Below, one piece after another: positions 1 to 13,241 of a stretch of 32,744 nt of DNA; positions within the stretch are counted from its first letter, which is position 1, and each line of letters starts with the position of its first letter. Under the pieces are notes generated by a model. It was not told the DNA's origin and searched no databases. It saw nothing but the letters and a program-made list of their open reading frames with translations. The position numbers and the translations under genes were made by a program. Origin of the DNA: a virus; IMG/VR virus record IMGVR_UViG_3300045413_000162, positions 1 through 32,744 of that record. One strand, given 5' to 3'.

Positions 1-167
1 AAAGGAACCAAACCTTCATCGAGAGAAACGATCTTTACATAATTTTTTGCAAAATAAACTGGATCATCATTGCACTTAATAAATTCCTCAATCTGACTAC
101 CAGTGAACTCAATTGGAGTGTTAGCCTTTTTGAGGTTTGGATTACCAAGATATACACCTTCAACCAT
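1..167 (-). CDS. gp17: Terminase large subunit, N-terminal 55 codons (cut by window edge)
   Basis: This is the start of the large terminase, the ATPase/nuclease motor that packages DNA into the prohead. Only 55 codons are visible and the frame stays open to the window edge. Translation begins MVEGVYLGNPNLKK and continues through EEFIKCNDDPVYFAKNYVKI to SLDEGLVP. The run DPVYFAKNY-K-IV..D.GLVPF is the N-terminal signature of T4 gp17-type terminases as I remember it. The ATG at 167 has an AGGAG seven bases upstream (175-179), which supports this start. The gene follows a 53-residue ORF ending at 178. The Walker and nuclease motifs lie outside the window. The assignment rests on the N-terminal segment plus the T4-like context. 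Confidence 0.93.
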   Translation of the reverse strand, partial: MVEGVYLGNPNLKKANTPIEFTGSQIEEFIKCNDDPVYFAKNYVKIVSLDEGLVP

Positions 168-174
168 TTAACTA

Positions 175-179
175 CTCCT
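175..179 (-). promoter_or_regulatory. Shine-Dalgarno of the large terminase gene
   Basis: The minus strand reads AGGAG here, seven bases before the ATG at 167. It is one of the clearest ribosome sites in the window and overlaps the TAG stop (178-180) of the upstream small gene. Confidence 0.75.
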
Positions 180-339
180 ATATTTTCACAGAATCATCTT
201 TATTTTTATTTGTCTTGTTTGTTTTACTTTTTATTTTAAAATCCGTATCACCAAGAAATGATCCAACAGCAAGAATGAGAACCTTAGAATGTGCATCTCT
301 GCTTGTGTTTTCTAATTCTACTTGACCCTCTGGAAGCAT
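178..339 (-). CDS. Small hypothetical protein, 53 residues
   Basis: This is a short ORF between the nuclease gene and the large terminase gene. Translation begins MLPEGQVELENTSRDAHSKV, continues with a short hydrophobic stretch (LILAVGSFLGD) and ends in a Lys/Asn/Thr-rich tail (KSKTNKTNKNKDD) before TAG. It fills the gap almost exactly and ends ten bases before the terminase ATG. A GGTGG lies about ten bases upstream of the start, and an AATAAATA late-promoter motif falls between the two. Its even fit between neighbours makes it a probable gene. I do not recognise a family with certainty and assign no function. Confidence 0.65.
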   Translation of the reverse strand: MLPEGQVELENTSRDAHSKVLILAVGSFLGDTDFKIKSKTNKTNKNKDDSVKI

Positions 340-342
340 CAC

Positions 343-350
343 TATTTATT
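343..350 (-). promoter_or_regulatory. Late-promoter motif AATAAATA
   Basis: The minus strand reads AATAAATA, a NATAAATA-type T4 late motif. It contains the TAA stop (346-348) of the nuclease gene. Its expected start site lies inside or just before the 53-residue ORF, so its most likely useful target is the large terminase gene at 167. Confidence 0.5.
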
Positions 351-777
351 CCACCAGAGTTCCTCTTTGTCGTCTAATAGTGTTTAACATCTCAAAGTCT
401 TTTACTTTTTTGTCTCCCTTATACGACCAGGCATAACCCGCATCAATCATCTGCTCATTCAGTGATGTTGGTTCATTATTAATAAACAAGTGCCCAATGA
501 TACGACCATACTTCTCTGTGCTGTTTGGAAGTTCGGTCTTGATGAGAATATCTTTCGCAAATTGTAATCTGTTCTTCAACCACTCTTTTGATTCGAGTCC
601 AAGTTTCTTTTCGTATGCGTCCGTAGTGCGCGATTCAGGCGTATCAACACCCGCAAGACGAATTCGCTTAGTAAGGGAAATATCAAAACCCAAATCAATA
701 TCAGCGTCAATAGTGTCCCCATCGACTACCTTATGGATTGAGCGTATACGATATATGTATGGGTCTTTATTATCCAT
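346..777 (-). CDS. Staphylococcal nuclease-like (thermonuclease family) protein
   Basis: This 143-residue protein is close to the size of a mature staphylococcal nuclease domain. The active-site pattern is complete: VVDGDTID (Asp21), IRLAGVDTPE (Arg40, Asp45, Glu48) and EKYGRIIG (Arg92). These match D21, R35, D40, E43 and R87 of the staphylococcal enzyme. That family is calcium-dependent and cleaves DNA and RNA to 3'-phosphate ends. A later AGYAW motif is also typical. There is no signal peptide, so it should act inside the cell. Sitting just upstream of the large terminase gene, it may serve host DNA breakdown or nucleotide recycling, but that role is inference. A late-promoter motif and a terminator lie directly upstream. 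No close Shine-Dalgarno precedes the ATG. Confidence 0.92.
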   Translation of the reverse strand: MDNKDPYIYRIRSIHKVVDGDTIDADIDLGFDISLTKRIRLAGVDTPESRTTDAYEKKLGLESKEWLKNRLQFAKDILIKTELPNSTEKYGRIIGHLFINNEPTSLNEQMIDAGYAWSYKGDKKVKDFEMLNTIRRQRGTLVE

Positions 778-802
778 CAGAAAGGAAACTTAATACTCCC
801 TG

Positions 803-810
803 TATTTATA
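803..810 (-). promoter_or_regulatory. Late promoter TATAAATA upstream of the nuclease gene
   Basis: This is the exact T4 late consensus TATAAATA on the minus strand, 25 bases upstream of the nuclease ATG. It lies directly after a terminator hairpin. It is the only copy at a gene boundary in this window with T in the first position, and the best-placed one, since it sits in true intergenic DNA. Confidence 0.8.
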
Positions 811-835
811 AAAAAGAGGGTGGTGAAGCCCTCTT
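811..835 (-). terminator. Rho-independent terminator after the 203-residue gene
   Basis: On the minus strand AAGAGGG (835-829) and CCCTCTT (820-814) form a perfect 7-bp stem with an 8-base loop. The stem ends in a T run (T5 at 815-811, counting the last stem bases). It lies 13 bases past the stop of the 203-residue gene, and the next bases are the late promoter TATAAATA. Confidence 0.82.
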
Positions 836-848
836 AATTATATCAATT

Positions 849-1460
849 TTACTTGGGCATTCTAGCACCACTCTTATGGCGCTCTTGTCCACTTTCATCA
901 GTCCAAGTTTCTCTTTCTCTTCTTGGAGAAACATAACCTACACCAGGAACAGCACCAGTTTGCCCCCTATCTCTAGCAGCATTTCTTGCTGCTGCTCTTT
1001 CTGCGGCTCTCTTGCGATTTCTATCATAAGAAGACATCGCTTCAACAATATCTTCTCTCCACTCTTCACTCATATTCACCATAATTGCTTCTGCTGCTTC
1101 TGGTGTTTCAGCATATCCTTCATCAAGAAGGTGTGAAAGGATAATGTCGTATAAATCTACTTGTTCTTTTTTTAGTTTTGATTGTGCTTCCTTTTCTGCT
1201 CTGTAACTATCTGGTTGTCCAGTTTTCTTTGCTTTTGCAGCAGCAGTTTTTCTTTTTGAAAACTCGGCACCTACTTTTGCCATTTTTGGGTCTCTATAAC
1301 CGTGAGGGTCTTCTGGAGTTCCCATTCCCATACCACCTCTTTTAGAAAGTTTGGCGAGATAATCCTTTCTATTAAATCTTGGTTCTTGATAACCTTCATC
1401 AAGTTCCTGATAAACTTCCATATATGCTTCTTGAAGATTGCGAAGTTCTTGTGTGTCCAT
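849..1460 (-). CDS. Charged marine T4-like phage protein, 203 residues, unknown function
   Basis: The protein is highly charged and probably mostly helical. Its N-terminus has a helical segment ending YMEVYQELDEGYQEP. Residues about 35-95 are a Gly/Lys-rich linker. Near residues 100-140 is the segment DLYDIILSHLLDEGYAE, followed by AAEAIMVNMSEEWREDIVE. I recall that segment as recurring in many cyanophage proteins of unknown role. The C-terminal third is Arg/Ala-rich (RNRKRAAERAAARNAARDR). There is no membrane segment and no catalytic motif. An AATAAATA motif lies 20 bases upstream of the ATG and a strong terminator follows the stop, so it may be transcribed alone. Its position in the late block suggests a virion or assembly role, which is inference. 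Confidence 0.85.
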   Translation of the reverse strand: MDTQELRNLQEAYMEVYQELDEGYQEPRFNRKDYLAKLSKRGGMGMGTPEDPHGYRDPKMAKVGAEFSKRKTAAAKAKKTGQPDSYRAEKEAQSKLKKEQVDLYDIILSHLLDEGYAETPEAAEAIMVNMSEEWREDIVEAMSSYDRNRKRAAERAAARNAARDRGQTGAVPGVGYVSPRRERETWTDESGQERHKSGARMPK

Positions 1461-1479
1461 TTTACGAATACTTTTTAGT

Positions 1480-1487
1480 TATTTATT
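1480..1487 (-). promoter_or_regulatory. Late-promoter motif AATAAATA upstream of the 203-residue gene
   Basis: NATAAATA-type motif on the minus strand, 20 bases before the ATG at 1460. It overlaps the TAA stop (1486-1488) of the upstream 70-residue gene. With the terminator at 811-835 it would define a single-gene late transcript. Confidence 0.65.
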
Positions 1488-1698
1488 AGAATGGGAGTTT
1501 AAACTCTTTGGTATTTAGTTTCGGAATCGGTAGTTTCTCAAAAGCCTTATTCACTTGATTCTCCACGACTTTCCCAACGAACTGCTCTGGGTTGTTGAGG
1601 ATTGCTTCTGCTCTCTTATAAGTCACATAAGCACCATAACAAAGTGCTCCACTAATCAGAAGGCTTGTCGTTGATAGAATAATTGCTAGGTTCTTCAT
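1486..1698 (-). CDS. Small membrane-anchored phage protein, 70 residues
   Basis: The protein has one N-terminal hydrophobic segment (AIILSTTSLLISGALCYGAY, about residues 5-24) flanked by Lys. A soluble tail follows with FVGKVVENQVNKAFEKLPIP and ends in a Lys/Phe-rich stretch. This looks like a signal anchor or an uncleaved signal with the tail outside the cytoplasm. Its likeness to small proteins in other marine T4-like phages is from memory. GAGGAA lies seven bases upstream of the ATG and supports the start. The gene begins inside the end of the 50-residue membrane gene upstream (47-base overlap in another frame), so the two are probably translationally coupled. Function unknown. Confidence 0.8.
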   Translation of the reverse strand: MKNLAIILSTTSLLISGALCYGAYVTYKRAEAILNNPEQFVGKVVENQVNKAFEKLPIPKLNTKEFKLPF

Positions 1699-1804
1699 TT
1701 TTCATTTCCTCATTTGCTAATTGTAATATGTAGTAGATGATGTATGCGGTAAATGCAAGTCCGCAAGAAAGCATAATAATCACACTCCAAACAGGTTCAG
1801 TCAT
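1652..1804 (-). CDS. Small membrane protein, 50 residues
   Basis: Translation begins MTEPVWSVIIMLSCGL and continues AFTAYIIYYILQLANEEM, then an acidic polar tail ending KPSD before TAG. Residues about 7-28 form a single membrane helix. The ORF fills the gap between the 91-residue gene (9 bases away) and the 70-residue gene, whose start it overlaps by 47 bases in another frame. The Shine-Dalgarno for the 70-residue gene is encoded in its Asn-Glu-Glu codons. The paired, overlapping layout of two single-helix membrane proteins resembles phage lysis or membrane-associated pairs, but nothing in the sequence proves that role. Confidence 0.68.
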   Translation of the reverse strand: MTEPVWSVIIMLSCGLAFTAYIIYYILQLANEEMKNEEPSNYSINDKPSD

Positions 1805-1812
1805 TTTATTTT

Positions 1813-2088
1813 CTAACCTTGATAAACCACCGAAGTTGCATAAACATCATTTCCACTATCAACTTTTATTGTGTCGTCCCTATCTTTCTTTATCAACAGA
1901 GTTGAGTTTGATGGTATATAAATTGATCCAATAGTTACTCCAGCACCAGTTTGTTGTGTGATAAAATGATCTCCCGCACCAATATGTTGAACTAATACAT
2001 ATTGTGCTCCGACATTATTAGCATCAGAAACCGTGGTTCCAATTCCCGATAATTGGTGTAGATTTCCTATAATTTTAATTGGGTTCAT
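1813..2088 (-). CDS. Small beta-rich hypothetical protein, 91 residues
   Basis: The protein starts MNPIKIIGNLHQLSGIGTTV. It has alternating hydrophobic and polar residues throughout (AQYVLVQHIGAG, GVTIGSIYIPSNSTLLIKKD, TIKVDSGNDVYATSVVY), the pattern of a small beta-sandwich or barrel. There is no signal peptide and no Cys. An AGGT lies near the right spacing before the ATG, and a CATAAATA late motif lies 17 bases upstream. I recall similar small proteins in other marine T4-like phages, so a small virion protein is possible. This is inference only. Confidence 0.8.
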   Translation of the reverse strand: MNPIKIIGNLHQLSGIGTTVSDANNVGAQYVLVQHIGAGDHFITQQTGAGVTIGSIYIPSNSTLLIKKDRDDTIKVDSGNDVYATSVVYQG

Positions 2089-2104
2089 TAGTATTTACCT
2101 AGAT

Positions 2105-2112
2105 TATTTATG
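2105..2112 (-). promoter_or_regulatory. Late-promoter motif CATAAATA upstream of the 91-residue gene
   Basis: NATAAATA-type motif on the minus strand, 17 bases before the ATG at 2088. It begins three bases after the stop of the 51-residue gene upstream. Confidence 0.65.
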
Positions 2113-2114
2113 TT

Positions 2115-2270
2115 TTAGGATTTGTTCCAAAAATCAGACCAATCTCTTTCGTTATCACTTATTTCCCAACCAGGTTCATAGAATGAACATGGTTCTTGGA
2201 AAAGTTCATCAATTTTTGCTTTATTGACTCTTTTTTGAAGATCCTTTAAGTCTTCATTGGTGATACTCAT
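2115..2270 (-). CDS. Small acidic hypothetical protein, 51 residues
   Basis: Translation begins MSITNEDLKDLQKRVNKAKI, continues DELFQEPCSFYEPGWEISDN and ends DWSDFWNKS before TAA. It is acidic, with a Lys-rich helix at the N-terminus and a Trp-rich end (three Trp in the last 17 residues). It overlaps the end of the 56-residue gene upstream by 17 bases and is followed by a late-promoter motif. Support comes from the tight, overlapping packing and lack of any alternative in the gap. No family recognised. Confidence 0.6.
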   Translation of the reverse strand: MSITNEDLKDLQKRVNKAKIDELFQEPCSFYEPGWEISDNERDWSDFWNKS

Positions 2271-2424
2271 TGATGATATCCAGAATTCGATTTAATACTT
2301 CGTTCGCCCCCCTTTTCTTTTCCTCAGAAAAGTTTTTAAAAATATCAGAATTTTCATAAAGTGATTTTTTTAAACCATAAATTTTATGAAGCATATCTAT
2401 TCGGGTCAACATGCCTCTTGGCAT
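2254..2424 (-). CDS. Small helical hypothetical protein, 56 residues
   Basis: Translation begins MPRGMLTRIDMLHKIYGLKK and continues SLYENSDIFKNFSEEKKRGA, then NEVLNRILDIINEYHQ before TGA. It looks like two amphipathic helices joined by a charged loop. I recall short proteins with an MPRGM.TRI.MLH start in cyanophages, which supports a real gene, though no function is known to me. A weak GAG lies upstream of the ATG. It overlaps the next 51-residue gene by 17 bases. Confidence 0.68.
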   Translation of the reverse strand: MPRGMLTRIDMLHKIYGLKKSLYENSDIFKNFSEEKKRGANEVLNRILDIINEYHQ

Positions 2425-2456
2425 AATTTTAATCTCATGGAATAATATCTATCGCA

Positions 2457-2708
2457 TTAATCTCCTGGAAAATCTTTTTCAAGATCTTCATTTCTTTGTT
2501 GCCAAGTGACTCCACCATCTATACCTCTACATGGATTGATACAAGCGTCATCATCTAAATTATTACAAACAAGTCCAGCAAGATCTAATTCATTTCCTCG
2601 TTTACCAGTTCCAGACCAATAATGTTCACCATTTAACCAAGTAGCACCACATTTGAGGCATTCTTTTCTTTCTAATGAAAGATCAGACAGTTCTTTTTCA
2701 ATGTTCAT
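2457..2708 (-). CDS. Cys-rich small protein, 83 residues (possible zinc ribbon)
   Basis: The protein has Cys residues in the order KECLKCGATWLNG, then LVCNN, then ACINPCRG. The CxxC plus three later Cys suggest a zinc-binding ribbon, though the spacing is not a textbook family. The C-terminus, VTWQQRNEDLEKDFPGD, is acidic. A strong GGAGGAA sits seven bases before the ATG, inside the end of the 76-residue membrane gene that it overlaps by 11 bases. Similar proteins (SLERKECPKCGATW) are, from memory, widespread in cyanophages without a known role. Confidence 0.8.
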   Translation of the reverse strand: MNIEKELSDLSLERKECLKCGATWLNGEHYWSGTGKRGNELDLAGLVCNNLDDDACINPCRGIDGGVTWQQRNEDLEKDFPGD

Positions 2709-2928
2709 TTAAATGTTCCTCCATTTCTTTTTTGAATGATGTTCTTGGTAGATTCAATTGCTTTTCGAGCTTTCTCTTTATGAAAAACATTTGAATCTTA
2801 ATCCAAGTGTATCTAATGTTTAAATCCACATATGAAAAAAGGCGTATGCTGCTTTCGTAACCACCATACGCGAAGAGTAACCCAGTTAATAGGAGAGTAA
2901 TGTAAAAACCCGTTAAGGTAGGTTGCAT
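2698..2928 (-). CDS. Small membrane protein, 76 residues
   Basis: The N-terminus is strongly hydrophobic (TGFYITLLLTGLLFAYGGYE, residues 6-25), giving one membrane helix. A second amphipathic stretch follows (RYTWIKIQMFFIKRKLEKQL), then a charged C-terminus. GGAG lies seven bases upstream of the ATG, one of the best ribosome sites here. It is the first gene after a 228-base intergenic region and may head a small operon with the 83-, 56- and 51-residue genes. I recall homologues in marine T4-like phages. Function unknown. Confidence 0.82.
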   Translation of the reverse strand: MQPTLTGFYITLLLTGLLFAYGGYESSIRLFSYVDLNIRYTWIKIQMFFIKRKLEKQLNLPRTSFKKEMEEHLNEH

Positions 2929-2972
2929 AGATTTCTCCGATAAAATCTTACAAGTAGTAAAATCATAATGTA

Positions 2973-2983
2973 TATAGACTATA
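2973..2983. repeat. Short palindrome TATAG-A-CTATA inside the candidate promoter
   Basis: Perfect 5-bp arms around one base, in the spacer between the candidate -35 and -10. It would suit a dimeric regulator binding site, but it is AT-rich and could be chance. Confidence 0.35.
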
Positions 2984-3079
2984 CTATCATGCCAACTATA
3001 ATGTTGTAAAATTTAATACTAATATTCTGACATTTGACAAGATATCAAAATATGATTAGAATATCTTTGTTAGGGATGA

Positions 3080-3097
3080 TAGATAAGGTATAGATAA
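3080..3097. repeat. Direct repeat TAGATAA, 11-base spacing
   Basis: Two exact TAGATAA copies (3080-3086 and 3091-3097) are spaced one helical turn apart in noncoding DNA upstream of the candidate promoter. This could be a protein-binding pair; chance is also plausible. Confidence 0.3.
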
Positions 3098-3156
3098 TAT
3101 TTAACTATTTTGTTTCTCTCCGCCGCAGTGCCGCACGTATGTTAATATCTGCATTT

Positions 3157-5058
3157 TCAACATCTCCAACGACGACGTGCCTTACAGATTGCCTTGTCTG
3201 GATCTTTTGAGCAATCAATGTTATGCATCTTCTGCTGCCCCGCTGAGCGGGCACAGAAGGACTTACGACGCTTTGATCTTCCAGGACCAGGATCTTTCTC
3301 AGTAACTGCTGTTTTGAGTTTTGAACCAGGATTTTCGCGACGATAAACATTAACTGCTTTTTGACTCATTCCATCAGTTTTATCAGACTTGTTTACCTTT
3401 TGCCAATCTTCTTCAAATTCAACTTGTTCTCTATATGATGGTAATCCTGCTGAACCAGTTTGAATCAATGGTTGCCCAGGAGTAAATTCAGATATTACAT
3501 GATTAACAACTTTTGATCCAGGGTATATTTTTTGAAGTTCATCTGTTACTTCTTGACGACTTGGTAGTTTTGCTTGTGGGAAGAACATACGAATTGAATA
3601 ATACTTTCCTCTCCAAGACAACGTAATAGCGACAATGTTTCCTGTTTGAGCTTGCAGTCTTGTTGCTTCCTCAATTTGAGACTTAAATCCCTTAATAGGT
3701 TCTGGTTTAATTAAATCAACAATTTCTGTAAAAGTATTGCCATCAACATCTTCAATAGTTACATCCTCTGCTTTCACACAATTTGGATATCTTTTTCCAA
3801 ACATTGTTTTCATGCCCTTTTTCTTGTACCCAGGCCAGCATTTTTCATTTAAAAGTTCATCTAAAATTTTATCAACTAATTTTTGCTCCTTCATTTCTCC
3901 ACTTGCAACGTAATCTGCTGCTGTATCAATATAATCTGCTGCCTTGGTAATTTTTGATTGAACCCAAGCTTCTAAATTTCCTTCACCTTTTCCGATTGAC
4001 ATTTTTAATTTTTTAACTGCATCTTCAATATTTTTTAGTTCTGATCTTGCCATGGAATATTCATGATCTTTTTTTTCTTCAAGAGTTGGACATACATTAG
4101 ATCCGTGCATTGGGCAAGTAGTTCCTTTCTTTGTATGATTACAAAACTTTTCTTCTGCTACAGATTTTCCAATCCCCACTTCGGTTGGTTTTACTGACTG
4201 CCCAGGAACATTAAATCCTTTTGGAAGTGGTTTACATTCTTTGTTTGTGTTGCACCAATACATACCTTTGCCACATAGTTCTTCACCAAGAATTATTTGT
4301 TCTATAGTTATTTTTTCTTCCGATTTAGTTCCCCAATTGTCAGCACCAACTTTACGGCACTTTACGAGTGCGCCAGATGCATACGCACTTGGCCAAACTC
4401 TATAACGTGATTTTACTTTATGATAGCAAGCATCTTTATTGCCACTGCCTTTACCTTTTTTATCTTTTGCTTCTTGTACGTTTATTTCTTCTTTCATTTT
4501 TTTTCTTGGAGAATCGGTAGAAACATAAGTTGGTTTTGCAGCCCCTGATTTTTCTTGTTGACCGGGATCTGCGATTTTTTTTCTTCTGGATGCCGACAAT
4601 CTTTCTGCTTTTGTCATACTTGCCCTTTTAGAAGAAGAAACGCATTTTGGCGTTCCCTCTCCTGGTTCATCACTTGCACAAGTCCCACCAGTCACTACAT
4701 TCACCCAACCAGACTTTCCATCTTTTGATTTTGATTTTCCAAACCAATCACGAAGACCTTCCTCATTCATTTCTTTTGTTTTTTCTTTCATAGAGTTAAT
4801 GAATTTTCTGTAAACTGCTGCTTCTGATGTTTTTCCAGATGCTCTTGCTCTTTGTTCCATTGCGATAGCTGCTTGAATTTTATGAGCGTGTGAACGACTT
4901 GATTTTTTTATTTTAGTTACTGATTGTTTTGCAGTCTCAACATCCTTAAATCCGAGCCCATGAATAGTGCCTTTTGGATTTTCATCCGTATAAAGATCAG
5001 AGTGTTTTTTTGATCCCGCAGGTTGTCCTGGTTTTCTTGAAATACGAGGATTGTTCAT
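3157..5058 (-). CDS. Cys/Lys-rich mosaic protein of several marine-phage modules, 633 residues
   Basis: Function unknown. At least six modules, all familiar to me from marine phages, are strung together. They are: residues 1-95, a Lys-rich helical module with HKIQAAIAMEQRARASGK (DUF6321/DUF5872-like, label uncertain); about 100-190, GLRDWFGKSKSKDGKSGW plus GGTCASDEPGEGTPKC; about 207-245, ACYHKVKSRYRVWPSAYASG; about 260-395, a Cys-rich CGKGMYWC/CNHTKKGTTCPMHG part leading to HEYSMARSEL and a helical AWVQSKITKAADYIDTA; about 405-430, CWPGYKKKGMKTMFGKRYPN; about 445-540, a domain with VAITLSWRGKYYSIRMFFP; and about 560-633, YRRENPGSK followed by RRKSFCARSAG, ending RRRWRC. Paired Cys/His suggest zinc knuckles, and the strong positive charge suggests nucleic-acid contact or packing inside the head. 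Both are inference. Its ATG overlaps the stop of a 51-residue gene (ATGA). Confidence 0.85.
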   Translation of the reverse strand: MNNPRISRKPGQPAGSKKHSDLYTDENPKGTIHGLGFKDVETAKQSVTKIKKSSRSHAHKIQAAIAMEQRARASGKTSEAAVYRKFINSMKEKTKEMNEEGLRDWFGKSKSKDGKSGWVNVVTGGTCASDEPGEGTPKCVSSSKRASMTKAERLSASRRKKIADPGQQEKSGAAKPTYVSTDSPRKKMKEEINVQEAKDKKGKGSGNKDACYHKVKSRYRVWPSAYASGALVKCRKVGADNWGTKSEEKITIEQIILGEELCGKGMYWCNTNKECKPLPKGFNVPGQSVKPTEVGIGKSVAEEKFCNHTKKGTTCPMHGSNVCPTLEEKKDHEYSMARSELKNIEDAVKKLKMSIGKGEGNLEAWVQSKITKAADYIDTAADYVASGEMKEQKLVDKILDELLNEKCWPGYKKKGMKTMFGKRYPNCVKAEDVTIEDVDGNTFTEIVDLIKPEPIKGFKSQIEEATRLQAQTGNIVAITLSWRGKYYSIRMFFPQAKLPSRQEVTDELQKIYPGSKVVNHVISEFTPGQPLIQTGSAGLPSYREQVEFEEDWQKVNKSDKTDGMSQKAVNVYRRENPGSKLKTAVTEKDPGPGRSKRRKSFCARSAGQQKMHNIDCSKDPDKAICKARRRWRC

Positions 5059-5210
5059 TCAACTGGTTTTGATTTAGTCTTCTCACCTTTTGCTCTTTTT
5101 TTTCTCGCGGCACAATGTGCTTTTTGAGAAAATCCTTTTGGATTTGAGCAATCAATACTTCTTTTATATTTATTGCTCCACTCTTCTTGAAACTCTTTAT
5201 AAGTTTTCAT
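5055..5210 (-). CDS. Small Cys-containing basic protein, 51 residues, coupled to the mosaic protein
   Basis: Translation begins MKTYKEFQEEWSNKYKRSI, continues DCSNPKGFSQKAHCAARKKR and ends KTKSKPVE before TGA. The CSNPKGFSQKAHCAARKKR stretch is a module I recall from many marine phage proteins, usually fused to the same Cys-rich domains found in the 633-residue neighbour. Here it is a separate gene whose TGA overlaps the neighbour's ATG by four bases (ATGA), which points to coupled translation and joint action. Two Cys and a His 12-13 residues apart could bind metal. The short helix before it (KEFQEEWSNKY) may be an interaction segment. Confidence 0.85.
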   Translation of the reverse strand: MKTYKEFQEEWSNKYKRSIDCSNPKGFSQKAHCAARKKRAKGEKTKSKPVE

Positions 5211-7390: not shown

Positions 7391-9305
7391 AAGCACCAGC
7401 GTCAACAGTGATGTTTTCTAAAATTCTTGCAGTTCCATCATAACGAATTACATCAGTATCACCAGCAGCATCATTGACTTTTAAAGAACCAATTTTTAAA
7501 TTGCCAACAACAGTTGCAGCACCAGAAACATTAACGTCAATGGCACTCATCAACCCATTAATGTTAACTCTGGCAGAAAATGTAGAAACGCCAGTTACAT
7601 TAATTCCACCCGCACCAACAATTAATCCACCACCGCCATAAGTTAAGTTTGCACTATCTTCAAGGGATCCAGAAGTTCCTGCCAACACAACTCTGCCAGA
7701 AGTAAGATCTGAGACAGTTGCTGATGATAGAACTGTTTCTCCACCACTAATGTCAGCTCCACCATTAGCATCAATTGCACCAGTAAACGTCGAAACACCA
7801 GTAACGCTTAGGTTCGTTGCATTAATTCTTGTTACAGTTCCTATCGTGCCAACTAAGTTGGTAATAGTGCCACTAGTGCTGTTTAATGTAGTGATAGTCG
7901 CAGCAGTGCCTGTAAGATTCGTAATAGTACCATTTGTACTATTCAGAGTAGTAATTGTAGCAGCAGTACCTGTTAGGTTTGTGATTGTGCCACTAGTGTT
8001 GTTTAGTGTTGTAATAGTAGCAGCAGTACCAGTTAAGTTAGTAATTGTACCACTAGTACTGTTTAATGTTGTAATTGTACCAATAGTTCCAACAAGATTC
8101 GTAGTGTCGAGTCTTGTAATTGTGCCAATAGTACCACTGAGATTAGTTGCAGTTACATTTGTAACGCTTAATGTTGCAATCGTTGCTGCACTTGAAACAT
8201 TGACATCATCAAGTTCCGCTAATCCATCTACATATAAATTTCTCCATTCTTGTGCTGGACGCCCAAGATCATAACTATCATCTGCACTTGGGGAGAAATT
8301 TTGATTCACTTCCCACGAGTCTGTTGCATTCTGCCAAAGTAGAGTATAATTATAATCTCCATATACTTCAATACCAGAACCATTTGCACCAGCATCTGAT
8401 GGAGTGGATGTTGAAGCAATACCAACAATTTTGTCCTCAACATCCAATCTTTCGGTGTGAATGATTGTCTCAGTTCCGTTAACAGTCAAATTACCACTGA
8501 TTGTTAAATTCTGAGAAATTAAAACATTCCCTCCACTAAAAGTAGATGCACCAGAAACATTGACGCCGCCAGCACCTACAACTAATCCACCACCACCATA
8601 AGTTAAGTTTGCGCTATCTTGAAGTGCGCCATTTGCGCCAGCAAGAACAACTCTACCAGAAGTTAAATCAGAAACTGTTGCTGATGAAAGGACAGTTTCT
8701 CCACCACTAATATCTGCACCACCATTAGCATCAAATGCACCAGTAACAGTTAAAGCTCCTCCAACAGATGCACCTTTTGTTACTACCAAGTTTGTAGTAA
8801 CTGTCAATGCTCCACCAACAATAACATTGTCTGGCATTCCAATAGTGACCTGGTTATCACTCACTGCCGTATTAATTTCATTTGCAGTTCCTGCAAATGT
8901 TATTGTCTGTCCAGTGCTTACTACGTCAGGAGTTCCACTATCAGCAGCAATTGTAAAATTACTTACAACTTCTCCCCAAGAAAGATTACCAGATCCGTCT
9001 GTTTTGAGATAATAATTATTTGTTGGAGAAGATGGAAATGTATAAGTTACATCTGCTGCAATGTTTGCTGGGGCAGCAAAAGAAATTGAATTTGTTCCAT
9101 TTGCAGTTGCTTCGTATACTTTTACTGCACCACCAGTTGATGCAGTTTCTGTTGTCCAAAATCTACCACTGCCAATGAGTTTATTTCCTGCTGCACTACC
9201 AACGTATAAGTCATATTTGTCAGTTGTAAATCCAGGTTCTCCACTATTCAATGCTGGGAGGTTTGCAAGTAAACCTCTTTTAAATTTTAAAATAGGTGCC
9301 GCCAT
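7386..9305 (-). CDS. Repeat-rich fibre-like virion structural protein, 639 residues
   Basis: The N-terminus MAAPILKFKRGLLANLPALN, with GEPGFTTDKYDLYVG soon after, is a signature I recall from tail-fibre-type proteins of marine T4-like phages. It is followed by an FWTTETASTGGAVKVYEA beta domain. Two copies of a roughly 68-residue domain (DANGGADISGGETVLSSA through NLTYGGGGL.VGAGG.NV) lie at about residues 189-258 and 508-577. Between them, after HTERLDVEDKIVGIAST and a segment with DSYDLGRPAQEWRNLYVDGL, comes a Thr/Ile/Leu/Asn repeat at about 380-490, including four 20-residue units. Such repeats suit a long beta-structured shaft, probably trimeric. The C-terminus ends TVDAGAF. A late motif precedes the gene; no Shine-Dalgarno is visible. 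Confidence 0.87.
   Translation of the reverse strand: MAAPILKFKRGLLANLPALNSGEPGFTTDKYDLYVGSAAGNKLIGSGRFWTTETASTGGAVKVYEATANGTNSISFAAPANIAADVTYTFPSSPTNNYYLKTDGSGNLSWGEVVSNFTIAADSGTPDVVSTGQTITFAGTANEINTAVSDNQVTIGMPDNVIVGGALTVTTNLVVTKGASVGGALTVTGAFDANGGADISGGETVLSSATVSDLTSGRVVLAGANGALQDSANLTYGGGGLVVGAGGVNVSGASTFSGGNVLISQNLTISGNLTVNGTETIIHTERLDVEDKIVGIASTSTPSDAGANGSGIEVYGDYNYTLLWQNATDSWEVNQNFSPSADDSYDLGRPAQEWRNLYVDGLAELDDVNVSSAATIATLSVTNVTATNLSGTIGTITRLDTTNLVGTIGTITTLNSTSGTITNLTGTAATITTLNNTSGTITNLTGTAATITTLNSTNGTITNLTGTAATITTLNSTSGTITNLVGTIGTVTRINATNLSVTGVSTFTGAIDANGGADISGGETVLSSATVSDLTSGRVVLAGTSGSLEDSANLTYGGGGLIVGAGGINVTGVSTFSARVNINGLMSAIDVNVSGAATVVGNLKIGSLKVNDAAGDTDVIRYDGTARILENITVDAGAF
7861..8100 (-). 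repeat. Four 60-bp tandem units inside the 639-residue fibre-like gene
   Basis: Units at 7861-7920, 7921-7980, 7981-8040 and 8041-8100 encode variants of TTLNSTSGTITNLTGTAATI. The second half of the 8041-8100 unit diverges (GTIGTI-type). Codons vary at synonymous sites between units, so the array is not a very recent duplication. Related shorter motifs continue on both sides. Confidence 0.85.
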
Positions 9306-9333
9306 TGTATTGTAAAAAATTCTTTGCTATGTT

Positions 9334-9341
9334 TATTTATT
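9334..9341 (-). promoter_or_regulatory. Late-promoter motif AATAAATA upstream of the 639-residue gene
   Basis: NATAAATA-type motif on the minus strand, overlapping the TAA stop (9340-9342) of the 348-residue gene and 29 bases before the ATG at 9305. Confidence 0.68.
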
Positions 9342-10386
9342 AAAAAGTTCCATAATCAATAATGTCATCATCTATATTGTCAGCAAGATCCATCACTTCT
9401 GACGGGTCCACAAAAACAAAAGTACTTGTAGATGCCTCGTAAATAAGAAGTCTCCTGTTTGCCAAATTTGAGGTGTTGACATCACTTAACGTAACTAAAC
9501 TTCCACCTCCACCAGATGCATCAGATCCTTCCCATTTGCCAGTTGTTGAATTGTATTTTAAAAACTTGTTGTTGACGGTTGCACTTGCTCGGTCAATGTC
9601 GTCCATGAATTCAAGACGAACTTCTCCACCACCACCCTGAACAGAAATATCTCTTAGACCTTGATAAAGAAGATTTCTTAGATCTCTCACTTCTTTTTTA
9701 AGACTTTCTATTTCGGTATTTTTTTCTCCAACAATATTATCATCTTTGATGAGAGATTTTAAAGTTTTTAATACCTGAGATACTGATGGGTTTTCTTCTT
9801 CGATTTTTTCACCATTTTCAATTTCTGATGAATTCGAAATTTCATCAATTAAATCTTCATTCTCATTTTGAATATTGTTAATTTCTTCATTTGTTTCTTC
9901 TTCTTTATTTTCTTCCTCAAAAGTAATTTCGATTGGAATTTCATAATCTTTAATAGGAACTTCAATTAATGATCCTGATATTTTTTGTTTGTCCTCGTTA
10001 AGAGTAACAAACTCATCTACAACTTCAATTGACTCATTAAATAACCAATTTTCAAATGCTTTTATTTCCTGTGTTTCTTTTTTCTTTTTTTTCTCTTCTT
10101 TCTTTTTTAATACTACAAGTTCTTCAAATAAGTTATTAATATCTATTTTTGGTTCTTCTATTTTAATTTCTTCTTTTTCTTTTTTAATTTCTATATCTTT
10201 TTTTGATTCTTTTATATCCGATGATTTTTTATTAGAAATCTTAGAAATTTTATCAAGTTCAGTCAGAACAAAATTTAAGTCTCCTAAAAGAGACTGATAT
10301 TCTTCTTCTTTCTTCTTTTTTTCCTCTTTGATAAGAGAGAAGAAATCGCCTAGATTTGTTTGGTTTTCATCTTTTGTTCTAGGCAT
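9340..10386 (-). CDS. Lys/Glu-rich coiled-coil virion-type protein, 348 residues
   Basis: The N-terminus (MPRTKDENQTNLGDFFSLIK) leads into a Lys/Glu/Ile-rich low-complexity region over about residues 15-215, with poly-Lys/Glu runs, most likely extended helix or coiled coil. A heptad-like segment (EIESLKKEVRDLRNLLYQGL) precedes a compact C-terminal domain with GGGGEVRLEFMDDIDRAS, NNKFLKYNSTTGKWEG and a Gly-rich linker. I recall that domain from virion structural proteins of marine T4-like phages. The protein ends DDDIIDYGTF. The start overlaps the end of gp16 by eight bases, with AGAGAA before it. It may link fibre-like proteins to the virion, but that is inference. Confidence 0.82.
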   Translation of the reverse strand: MPRTKDENQTNLGDFFSLIKEEKKKKEEEYQSLLGDLNFVLTELDKISKISNKKSSDIKESKKDIEIKKEKEEIKIEEPKIDINNLFEELVVLKKKEEKKKKKETQEIKAFENWLFNESIEVVDEFVTLNEDKQKISGSLIEVPIKDYEIPIEITFEEENKEEETNEEINNIQNENEDLIDEISNSSEIENGEKIEEENPSVSQVLKTLKSLIKDDNIVGEKNTEIESLKKEVRDLRNLLYQGLRDISVQGGGGEVRLEFMDDIDRASATVNNKFLKYNSTTGKWEGSDASGGGGSLVTLSDVNTSNLANRRLLIYEASTSTFVFVDPSEVMDLADNIDDDIIDYGTF

Positions 10387-10804
10387 TTTCTCTATTAGAT
10401 AAACCCTGCTTCAATAATTTTTGAAGTTCTGCTGTGGATCCAACAAATAGGGCATTATTAACTGTGGTGGGACCTTTTGGCGTGTCCTCTGTTTCCAAGT
10501 CTTTTAATTTTCTTTGCAAATCCATCAATTTATCAGTTGCATCAGAAACACTCTTAATCAATTGACCAGCAACTTCATAGGCTCTTGGAGTGTCATTTTC
10601 CTGAGCCAGTTCCAATATATTATTTATTGCTTCTTGACCTTTTTCAATTATGGAATATAAGTTTCCCCTTGTATATTCATAGTCTTTTCTGATGTCTGTG
10701 CTACTAGATACTTTTTGTATTTCTTTTGATAATTTTTCAGCAGATACAATTTCTCCTTCTACATCAAATACATCATTCAATTCGCTGAATTTATCGGTTT
10801 TCAT
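10379..10804 (-). CDS. gp16: Terminase small subunit
   Basis: This 141-residue protein (T4 gp16 is 164) has the expected plan: a poorly conserved acidic N-terminus, a central pair of long helices (RKDYEYTRGNLYSIIEKGQE through YEVAGQLIKSVSDATDKLMD), then NNALFVGSTAELQKLLKQ. The last segment matches the N-A-x-x-F-x-GS-x-x-EL motif near the gp16 C-terminus. The small terminase forms a ring that binds DNA and regulates gp17. The start overlaps the gp15 stop by four bases (ATGA), and the end overlaps the 348-residue gene. In T4 gp17 follows directly; here it lies about 10 kb further on. Confidence 0.9.
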   Translation of the reverse strand: MKTDKFSELNDVFDVEGEIVSAEKLSKEIQKVSSSTDIRKDYEYTRGNLYSIIEKGQEAINNILELAQENDTPRAYEVAGQLIKSVSDATDKLMDLQRKLKDLETEDTPKGPTTVNNALFVGSTAELQKLLKQGLSNRENA

Positions 10805-11844
10805 AGGTCAATATCAGTATTAAGTGTTGGACTAAATTCTTTAAAGTCTTGGAAGAAAGAAACAGTCTCATTGAAACCAAAATCATCTCCAATTTCAATC
10901 AGAGCGTCGTCAGCAGTTGTAATTGTTTTGACCGCAGATCCTCTTACATGTTCCGTTTCAACTGTGTTATCCTGACCCCTCTTAACTGTAAGTTTATTAC
11001 CAGATATTGAAGTAACATACATTTCTTCTTTATTCACGTAAATATATGATGACTCAGATAGACCTGTGGCATCGTTCACGACAAAGATTGTTTGTCCAAC
11101 TGGAATATCTTCATCAAGAGTAGTGACAATACTATTGTCATAGTCTTTGACTGCCCTAGGAGTTACTGTATATCTCATTTCTCTCTTAGGACTCTCAATA
11201 CCAGTCATAACATCAACAGTAGCCTTCTTGATAATCTTACTATCTTGTACAGGACCAAACAGATGAGTTTTGGCAGTAAAGATTAATGTATAGACAAGAG
11301 CTCTTCTTGTAGTATAATCTCCCTCATATTGATCATCCATTGAAATTGATTCCAACTGAATTGGAACATCTTTCTTTTCGTCAATTGTATCAACTAAATT
11401 GATAGTTAAATTATAAGATGGTTGAAAATATGGTAATATTTGCTCAATAATTTGAAGAGCATCATCATTTGTTTTTGATAAAATTGACAGTTCAAACCTC
11501 ATGTTGTAAGGCACAGGCATGAATGTCTTTTTTTGAAGTGTTGGATTGGATGGATTTTTTGTTATGAAAGATTTTGTTGATGATGTTTTTCTAGAAGGAT
11601 CGTATGTAACTCCAGTAAATTCAAAAGACATTCTTGGTAATGTCAGTTGGACTGGTTTATTGAGATCTGCCGACTGCTCCAATCTCGCTAAAAATTTCTG
11701 AGTAGGACCATAAGCAAGAGGAACCTTCATCACACTAAAAGTGTTATTGCTATTGTCCTTATGTTTAATGTTTATATTATTGAAAAGAGTGCCAAATCCA
11801 ATGACAGTTCTTCTAAAAATTTCGTGATAAAAATATTCAAACAT
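10801..11844 (-). CDS. gp15: Tail sheath stabiliser / tail completion protein
   Basis: The start MFEYFYHEIFRRTVIGFGTL matches T4 gp15 (MFGYFY..SFRR). The core has RFELSILSKTNDDALQIIEQ and then ILPYFQPSYNLT, the gp15 signature. gp15 caps the tail tube and sheath and joins the tail to the neck. At 347 residues it is longer than T4 gp15 (272). Much of the extra is an inserted beta-rich segment at about residues 240-308 with VGQTIFVVNDATGLSESSYI and NKLTVKRGQDNTVETEH, which recurs in both giant baseplate proteins. Upstream, TAGGATC precedes the ATG. The 41-base gap to gp14 has no exact NATAAATA, only TATATAATA. Confidence 0.95.
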   Translation of the reverse strand: MFEYFYHEIFRRTVIGFGTLFNNINIKHKDNSNNTFSVMKVPLAYGPTQKFLARLEQSADLNKPVQLTLPRMSFEFTGVTYDPSRKTSSTKSFITKNPSNPTLQKKTFMPVPYNMRFELSILSKTNDDALQIIEQILPYFQPSYNLTINLVDTIDEKKDVPIQLESISMDDQYEGDYTTRRALVYTLIFTAKTHLFGPVQDSKIIKKATVDVMTGIESPKREMRYTVTPRAVKDYDNSIVTTLDEDIPVGQTIFVVNDATGLSESSYIYVNKEEMYVTSISGNKLTVKRGQDNTVETEHVRGSAVKTITTADDALIEIGDDFGFNETVSFFQDFKEFSPTLNTDIDL

Positions 11845-11885
11845 TTTTTGATCCTATTATATAAACTATTTAACAACTTTTTAAA

Positions 11886-13241
11886 TTATGGTTCGCCAAA
11901 GGGATTTCTTTGCGTGAAGTCTAAAATATCATCAGCATTGAGTTCAATAACATCATTTTGAGCATATGAATCGACAAGATCCTGAGTTTCTGCACTATAA
12001 AATGCATATACTGCTCCCGATTCTGATCCTGTGATTGCCTCACCATTTACAAAACTGCCGTTAATAATACTGATTTGAAGTTCCTTAGTTGATGCTGTCC
12101 ACTTTTTAACTCTTGCAGTTGTTCCAGAATTACTACCAATAATTATTTCATTGAATACATAATTTCCTGCTCCGAGTGTATTGGGTGCGGCAACTGTGAC
12201 TGATGGAACAGAAGTATACCCAGATCCAGCATTAGTAATGTAGATCGCTGATATAGCATTTCCAGATAGAATTGAATATCCCTTTGCCGTAGTTCCTCCA
12301 CCAGGAGCACCCGAGAAAGTGATGATTGGTGCAGTTGTATAACCAGATCCACCACTTGTGATTGTTACAATACCCACTGTTCCAGTTGTTCCAATACCTG
12401 CGGTTGCAATTCCCCCACTACCCGTTGTACTTATAAAACTAATTCCTGGTGGATTAATATATCCAAAACCAGGATTTAAGATTGCAACTGAACTAATACC
12501 AAATCCAGAGTTTGCAAATGCCAGAGCCGATGCAGTTTTTCCTCCTGCTGGTGCAGAAGATATTGCTACAATTGGATCACTTTCATAACCATATCCATCA
12601 TTAATCAATTGAATATATTGTAATCCGCCATTTCTAATTGTAGTCAAAGCAGTAGCCGTTGATCCTATTCCAACAAGAGTAAGAGTCTGAATATACCCAT
12701 CTTCTTTAACATTATCATCAATATTTGCAACATCCGTATCGATAACTTCGTCTTCATAACGGAAGAGTTCACATCTCAGTTCATAAACATAAGTCTTTTG
12801 AAGTTGATAGAAAGGTTGCTCATGCTCAACAAATTTAATCTCAAATAATCTATCGCCAAGAGGAAACCAAATTAAATCACCTTCTTTTGGTCTAGTTGAT
12901 AGTTCAATATTTGGTAGATTTTTTATCAGCGGAGAAATATAATTTTCATATCTTTCTTTGGATATAATTAATGTTAAATCATTTAGAGGTTGTACACCAA
13001 ATTTTGATAAAATAGTTCCCTGTCCTTCATATCCATCATAAGTATTCACATAAGCTTCTATTGGATATGCATCATCAAATTTTGATTGTATTACTTCTTT
13101 AATAACTGTCTTTTTGGTTACATATTTTCTGGGAAGATAATAAACTTCAACTCCATACATTCGGAGTTGTTCGTTAATCAAACTCTGTATTAATCCTTGT
13201 TCTGCGGATGTTCCCTGAGTAAAAAACGGATTAAGTGCCAT
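11886..13241 (-). CDS. gp14: Neck protein gp14 with an inserted GxGY-repeat domain
   Basis: Residues 1-165 align with T4 gp14: MYGVEVYYLPRKYV, AYPIEAYVNTYDGYEGQG, LSKFGVQPLNDLTLIISKER, KEGDLIWFPLGDRLFEIKFV and PFYQLQKTYVYELRCELF. gp14 forms the neck with gp13 after DNA packaging. The C-terminus LDFTQRNPFGEP corresponds to the short T4 end. The protein is 451 residues against 256 in T4. The extra lies between about 185 and 425 and holds four G-x-GY repeats (LINDGYGYESDP, LNPGFGYINPP, TSGGSGYTTAP, TNAGSGYTSVP), then an SG(T/A)-x-A-x-V module (SNSGTTARVKKW, GEAITGSESGAVYAF). Both module types recur in the baseplate proteins. One base separates the ATG from the gp13 stop. Confidence 0.95.
   Translation of the reverse strand: MALNPFFTQGTSAEQGLIQSLINEQLRMYGVEVYYLPRKYVTKKTVIKEVIQSKFDDAYPIEAYVNTYDGYEGQGTILSKFGVQPLNDLTLIISKERYENYISPLIKNLPNIELSTRPKEGDLIWFPLGDRLFEIKFVEHEQPFYQLQKTYVYELRCELFRYEDEVIDTDVANIDDNVKEDGYIQTLTLVGIGSTATALTTIRNGGLQYIQLINDGYGYESDPIVAISSAPAGGKTASALAFANSGFGISSVAILNPGFGYINPPGISFISTTGSGGIATAGIGTTGTVGIVTITSGGSGYTTAPIITFSGAPGGGTTAKGYSILSGNAISAIYITNAGSGYTSVPSVTVAAPNTLGAGNYVFNEIIIGSNSGTTARVKKWTASTKELQISIINGSFVNGEAITGSESGAVYAFYSAETQDLVDSYAQNDVIELNADDILDFTQRNPFGEP

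Follow-up and report, generated by a model that had tools for sequence, protein, structure and literature searches.

The internal proteins of phage T4 and their processing by the prohead protease gp21 are well known. The protease cuts after Glu in the motif L/I-X-E, and in the T4 capsid-targeting sequence residues 4 and 7 serve targeting, while residues 8 and 10 allow processing (PMC9026906). IpIII, for example, is cut after residue 10 of MKTYQEFIAE/A (record X04567; here and below, a slash marks a bond that is cut or is a candidate for cutting). Other substrates of gp21 are Alt, cut at ITE-6 and LTE-619, and gp22, gp67 and gp68, which are shredded into short fragments (PMC5694885). Of 15 papers found on capsid targeting sequences, none, judged by title, concerns cyanophages. 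For the T4-GC 119 proteins of cyanophages, known as hypothetical or structural, no mechanism was found in the records or literature surveyed.

In this study, we analyzed a window of 32,744 nucleotides (positions 1 to 32,744 of IMG/VR virus record IMGVR_UViG_3300045413_000162), in which a large mosaic gene, P0001, and a small gene, P0002, are coupled on the minus strand. We propose, with a probability of about 0.7, that P0001 is a polyprotein which gp21 cuts into internal head peptides, and that P0002 is a single module targeted to the capsid.

Genomic location and family of P0001

A preliminary description of this DNA had singled out a Cys/Lys-rich mosaic protein of 633 aa and a 51 aa gene just upstream, coupled to it by ATGA; the open reading frames and their four-base overlap bear this out. 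P0001 has a pI of 9.5, with 19% Lys+Arg, 16 Cys and 10 His, and P0002 a pI of 9.9 with 29% Lys+Arg. The minus-strand genes of the window run from VrlC-like and neck proteins through gp15, gp16 and tail-fibre-like genes to P0002 and P0001. The position of P0001 after gp13, gp14, gp15, gp16 and tail-fibre-like genes is the same in relatives, and the same order, with gp17 next, directly or a few genes later, is found in S-SM2, Bellamy, S-SM1, S-B43 and S-SCSM1. The window ends about 3 kb beyond P0001, and gp17 was not seen in it; since it stops before gp17-gp23, the gp23 sites given below come from related phages. Positions 1-3156 hold small ORFs where relatives have gp17 after the P0001-type gene, and probably represent the variable region already known to separate gp16 from gp17. 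One ORF (346-777) resembles, by eye, a staphylococcal-nuclease-like protein. Another, P0003 (849-1460, minus strand), encodes a second basic mosaic protein with LQE/A and LDE/G motifs near its N-terminus, and has a module in common with S-SCSM1_89, which carries the label “virion protein”.

By homology, P0001 is a member of T4-GC 119, a cyanophage cluster, and its gene position agrees on the gp16 side. It is homologous to SSM1_115 and SSM2_109, matches the latter, annotated as T4-LIKE GC 119, at 53% over 96% (tblastn), and has matches in 467 phage records, mostly Synechococcus T4-like myoviruses. Members of this cluster (Sullivan's scheme) lie between the terminase genes gp16 and gp17, and the family member in S-B43 is annotated as “structural protein, cyanophage only”. 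The C-terminus of P0001 (residues 559-631) is Pfam domain DUF6321 (E 7e-11, 43.1 bits for a gathering cut-off of 28.5); other Pfam domains found in relatives are DUF5661 and DUF192. In podoviruses of Prochlorococcus and Pelagibacter, DUF6321 stands alone, with neither site nor leader. Such lone proteins are encoded in P-SCSP1d (L171:4956-5210), directly after the major capsid gene, and in HTVC010P (L172:4953-5234). S-SZBM1_190, a “virion structural protein” encoded between gp16 and gp17, was ruled out as a T4-GC 119 protein, none of the modules being present.

Modular organization and shuffling

HMMs based on relatives resolved nine modules in P0001 (Table 1), where the preliminary description had counted at least six. 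Structure prediction, which that description had suggested, was done with AlphaFold2 and 48 relatives, and the model resembles beads on a string, with separate confident modules on disordered linkers (pTM 0.27). The confident segments are helices at residues 55-96, M6 (326-390) and M8 (470-525). P0001 gave no phmmer match in the PDB at E<=1, and its model, of low overall confidence, no Foldseek match to solved structures at E<=0.001. As DUF6321 is the only Pfam domain in P0001 and neither its sequence nor its fold matched the PDB, assignment to a known enzyme was rejected. The best PDB matches of P0002 are zinc fingers with E values of 0.3-0.5, which are not meaningful, and this assignment was rejected. 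The Cys/His patterns in P0001 are real; binding of metal or nucleic acid by its modules would be a guess from the sequence.

Table 1. Features of the P0001-P0002 locus (window coordinates; residues are those of the encoded protein; a slash marks the candidate bond).
Feature	Residues	Coordinates	Strand	Basis or remark
P0001, 633 aa ORF, T4-GC 119 family mosaic		3157..5058	-	putative polyprotein giving rise to internal head peptides
P0002, 51 aa gene, targeting-like leader + module M12		5055..5210	-	overlaps P0001 by ATGA
Leader MKTYKEFQEE	P0002 1-10	5181..5210	-	capsid-targeting-like; cf. T4 IpIII MKTYQEFIAE/A
Module M12 (WSNKYKRSIDCSNPKGFSQKAHCAARKKRA)	P0002	5091..5180	-
M1	P0001 3-91	4786..5052	-	HMMs
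Putative prohead-protease site MNE/E	P0001 99	4762..4770	-	before M2
M2	P0001 102-187	4498..4755	-	HMMs
Putative site VQE/A	P0001 196	4471..4479	-	11 residues upstream of M3
M3 (KDACYHKVKSRY..ALVKCRK)	P0001 208-243	4330..4437	-	HMMs
Putative site LGE/E	P0001 259	4282..4290	-	before M4
M4 (CGKGMYWCNTNKECKP)	P0001 260-283	4210..4281	-	HMMs
Putative site VAE/E	P0001 302	4153..4161	-	before M5
M5, Cys/His cluster CNHTKKGTTCPMHGSNVCP	P0001 305-324	4087..4146	-	HMMs
Putative site LEE/K	P0001 328	4075..4083	-	before M6
M6, helical	P0001 331-388	3895..4068	-	HMMs, AlphaFold2
Putative site LNE/K	P0001 405	3844..3852	-	before M7
M7 (CWPGYKKKGMKTMFGKRYPNCVK)	P0001 407-429	3772..3840	-	HMMs
Putative site IEE/A	P0001 464	3667..3675	-	before M8
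M8	P0001 467-532	3463..3660	-	relatives also have a separate leader-bearing gene just downstream
Putative site FEE/D	P0001 550	3409..3417	-	before M9
M9 = DUF6321	P0001 552-633	3160..3405	-	Pfam, HMMs

Profiles made from twelve seed modules were searched against all ORFs of 157 IMG/VR loci and of isolates. This survey of module combinations in viromes, also proposed in the preliminary description, returned 243 non-redundant environmental ORFs with modules in about 70 orders, the modules being shuffled, lost or duplicated. Module M12 (CSNPKGFSQKAHCAARKKR), the detached module noted earlier, is encoded separately in some cases and in others is fused to the large protein or embedded in it. As a separate gene it was found in 58 non-redundant ORFs, and its distance to the start of the mosaic gene is -4 nt in 54 and -1 nt in 15 of 72 pairs (69/72 overlapping). 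The coupling of the two genes is thus conserved. A separate M8 gene follows <=4 nt from the end of the mosaic gene in the 41 cases with both genes present. One locus (L160:5287-7395) encodes a 702 aa protein with the order M6-M12-M6, a C-terminal stretch that by eye resembles phage lysozyme, and many [LIVMF]-x-E motifs between its parts.

Prohead-protease-like sites at the module borders

Side-by-side reading of six isolate proteins suggested that a hydrophobic-x-Glu motif precedes each module. In the 157 environmental loci, 74% of 504 distinct junctions have [LIVMF]-x-E no more than 10 residues ahead of the module, compared with 26% in shuffled sequences; because the distance from site to module is fixed per module, these junctions are not independent events and the fair unit is about 12 module types. 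The proportion reaches 100% for M7 and 98.5% for M8. M3 appeared as a module without a site, an artefact of the 10-residue window: its site lies farther away, 11 residues upstream, and is found within 14 residues in 87% of cases vs 22%. Two residues ahead of the last Glu before a module (E-2), one of Leu, Ile, Val, Met and Phe is present in 63% of 447 distinct contexts; the corresponding figures are 16% for Glu residues within modules and 33% for those of other ORFs. At other offsets from the junction Glu, hydrophobic residues occur at 5-26%. Control motifs, with other spacing or with Asp or Lys, had observed/shuffled ratios of 0.56-1.40, vs 2.2 for the hydrophobic-x-E motif (psi-x-E). The distance from site to module is typical of each module (always 3 for M8, usually 1 for M7, usually 2 for M2), so that each site is part of its module and travels along with it, irrespective of the module in front. 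The residues within the motif vary.

In related phages, gp23 carries sites of the same kind, FLAE/A in S-SCSM1, which aligns with T4 FLTE/A, ILTE/T in S-SM1, ILTE/A in S-SZBM1 and LLTE/A in S-CREM2. A motif of this L/I-x-E type, scored with the wider residue set LIVMF, is present at the module borders of P0001. Of a total of 15 [LIVMF]-x-E motifs in P0001, two lie inside parts predicted by AlphaFold2 to be folded, and eight in segments with a pLDDT below 50, which agrees with our model without being a test of it, because 40% of the chain is also below 50. The module borders thus carry prohead-protease-like sites, and the motif is statistically real. The mosaic protein had previously been left outside any known pathway; it is now seen to fit the head-core and proteolytic-maturation pathway of T4.

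A motif distance fixed per module would also be expected of inherited linkers, and P0001 could conceivably be an uncleaved, flexible multi-domain virion protein, in the head or at the neck, in which [LIVMF]-x-E marks linkers travelling with the modules. Detection in virions would require no cleavage of such a protein, and the predicted beads with disordered linkers suit it. However, the motif fits the published rule for gp21 in both offset and residue, and the controls are much less enriched or even depleted; P3 and P1 are kept and P2 is free; and the same Glu junction is present where a module follows a capsid-targeting leader. We consider this reading unlikely. It is similarly improbable that P0001 is a scaffold-like protein of the head core, shredded by gp21 with most pieces leaving the head, and that its modules act in assembly and not in the host. 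T4 gp22, gp67 and gp68 are precedents for such shredding (PMC5694885) and the gene is located in the head and packaging cluster, but each module is conserved in its own right, the modules are shuffled and exchanged, and they are also found alone behind leaders or as lone podovirus genes. Conserved, swapped and stand-alone modules suit cargo better than scaffold. The lone DUF6321 proteins of podoviruses, without site or leader, further suggest that this module has a function independent of gp21; this counts against a need for the cleavage route, yet would suit a cargo role.

A capsid-targeting-like leader in P0002 and in relatives

The leader of P0002 aligns without gaps with MKTYQEFIAE of IpIII, with 7/10 residues identical, including Y4 and F7. 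An L/I-x-E processing site was not found at residues 8-10 of P0002, which read Q8-E9-E10 where T4 needs I or L at position 8; an alternative site, F7-Q8-E9/E10 (F-Q-E/E-W), is possible and falls outside the T4 L/I rule. In P0001, whose N-terminus is MNNPRISRKPGQPAG, no N-terminal 10-residue capsid-targeting sequence was found. Most of its long homologues are likewise without a leader, which is present in a few: MKTYQEFISE/A is directly followed by M7 in two loci (L145, L159), and MKNFKEFIEE/A by M5 at the start of a seven-module protein in a third (L055). In relatives MKSFKQFLSE/S also stands before M8, and S-SZBM1_192, a mini DUF6321 protein, has MKTFKQYITE/A before a Cys cluster and DUF6321; these leaders are better copies than that of P0002. 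M12, M7, M5, M8 and the mini DUF6321 protein are all found directly behind leaders of the MKTFKQF/MKTYQEFISE type. The targeting-like leader is statistically real, and of 106 distinct N-termini that have it, 93 are those of module proteins, a figure that reflects an association and not a genome-wide rate, because the loci were collected through these modules.

Immediately beyond its cut site, gp23 has a stretch (PTNxVGxxGF...GPxAGxDP) that recurs in small or virion-detected proteins, as if they copied the N-terminal arm of this major capsid protein. These are SSM2_108 (L002:7576-8004), where it lies between a capsid-targeting leader and M12, SSCSM1_97 (L008:43121-43306) and S-CREM2 ORF160 (L175:36343-37236).

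Family members and leader-bearing enzymes in virions

The S-CREM2 homologue of the P0001 family (108049-109518) lies exactly at ORF137 (108049-109521), which was detected by mass spectrometry (MS) in purified virions with 4 unique peptides (PMC10665884 Table 3). Another homologue, S-SCSM1_29, is labelled “virion protein” in its record; this is supporting and not decisive, because 48 S-SCSM1 proteins bear the label vs 45 in the published virion list. An identity of these labels with the MS list was rejected, the two numbers being close but not identical, and the S-CREM2 and S-SZBM1 tables were used. S-SZBM1_139, which carries M7, was detected by MS with 4 peptides (PMC9146016 Table 1). This protein (L170:2989-4362), encoded beside the NMNAT gene, combines M7 with long repeats rich in Ala and Lys that recall histone-like tails. 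The lists of MS-detected proteins contain neither S-SZBM1_192 nor the M8 genes with leaders. Of the earlier suggestion that the protein is perhaps inside the head or injected, a place in the virion is supported by the detection of ORF137 and the label of S-SCSM1_29, by the junction sites and by the leader of P0002; injection is not part of this support.

All four packaged non-structural enzymes of S-CREM2 also carry such a leader, beginning with MKDFDSFLEE (SAM hydrolase), VKRFDAFLTE (kinase) and MKNFSSFLTE (NMNAT), and Cas9 has LRFASFMAE/A after a short N-terminal extension. The genes for SAM hydrolase, Cas9, kinase and NMNAT lie at 3837-5081, 7704-10313, 10579-12846 and 124608-125468 of OR473000. 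The pattern [FLYW]..F[LIMVF].E occurs in the first 30 residues of 7/52 MS-detected S-CREM2 proteins vs 1/167 other proteins (p = 2e-4); among the seven, the match in ORF122, a baseplate protein, is probably due to chance. That all four of these enzymes carry a T4-like leader supports true encapsidation rather than contamination. Among the annotated proteins of S-SCSM1, only NMNAT, a virion protein (PMC9602691), and the M8 gene beside the T4-GC 119 protein start with the leader (from a scan of ORFs compared by eye with the annotation). For S-SZBM1, in the part that was searched, the leader-starting proteins are NMNAT, detected in virions (PMC9146016), and the two T4-GC 119-type genes.

It is very unlikely that P0001 is a metal-bound nucleic-acid-binding protein used in the infected cell and present in virions as a contaminant only, as its Cys/His clusters, its high Lys/Arg content and the carry-over of abundant cell proteins in MS of CsCl preparations (noted by the S-SCSM1 and S-CREM2 authors) might suggest, since the gene sits among head and tail genes, the family was detected or flagged in two phages, and protease-site-like junctions and neighbouring leaders are present.

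Proposed role

In our preferred reading, that of a precursor polyprotein, P0001 would be a string of small, basic, Cys-containing modules, each placed after a putative gp21 site, and would be taken into the prohead core with no N-terminal leader of its own. The protease would cut it at [LIVMF]-x-E/ into separate peptides, which may stay with the DNA and would presumably be delivered into the host by injection. P0002 would be one such module with a gene to itself, carrying at its N-terminus a capsid-targeting sequence of the T4 type. A broader proposal, on which we are evenly divided, is that a cut site and its module form an interchangeable, protease-releasable cargo cassette, shuffled in polyproteins or carried singly on a leader. 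The virion would then bring a multi-peptide kit for host takeover or DNA protection from one precursor, and the same leader would deliver NMNAT, SAM hydrolase, kinase and Cas9 inside cyanophage heads.

T4-GC 119, among the most frequent of the unexplained protein clusters in marine T4-like phages, would thereby gain a testable role. The T4-type targeting leader could serve as a short sequence rule for predicting which proteins cyanophages carry in their heads, among them enzymes whose detection in virions had been hard to explain or had raised a suspicion of contamination. A head-maturation strategy in which many small internal proteins are packed as a single precursor, to be cut by a protease, was not found in the literature surveyed; nor did the records and literature surveyed describe modules shuffled within a string and cut one by one.

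Comparison with known systems

By homology, P0001 is a member of the group known as T4-GC 119, PHROG 727, 3477 and 12753, or DUF6321, and its gene position agrees as far as the window extends. Like the ejected head proteins of phiKZ and SPN3US, internal proteins in which the prohead protease has a single site or several, it has candidate sites within the chain. Those phages, however, use S80 proteases that recognise A-x-E and remove propeptides from proteins ejected into the host; the specificity differs, the sequences are unrelated, and the strings of modules are a feature of P0001. The likeness to T4 IPI, IPII and IPIII is closest for P0002, small and basic, whose leader shares Y4 and F7 with that of IPIII, and for the modules of relatives placed directly behind a leader with a Glu site. 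No sequence relation to the IPs was detected beyond the leader, and unlike these single proteins, which are cut once, P0001 is long and multi-modular and has no N-terminal targeting sequence. In having multiple L/I-x-E-type motifs in one chain, P0001 resembles T4 Alt, gp22, gp67 and gp68. Unlike the T4 core proteins, which are shredded and mostly expelled, it carries its putative sites at the borders of discrete conserved modules.
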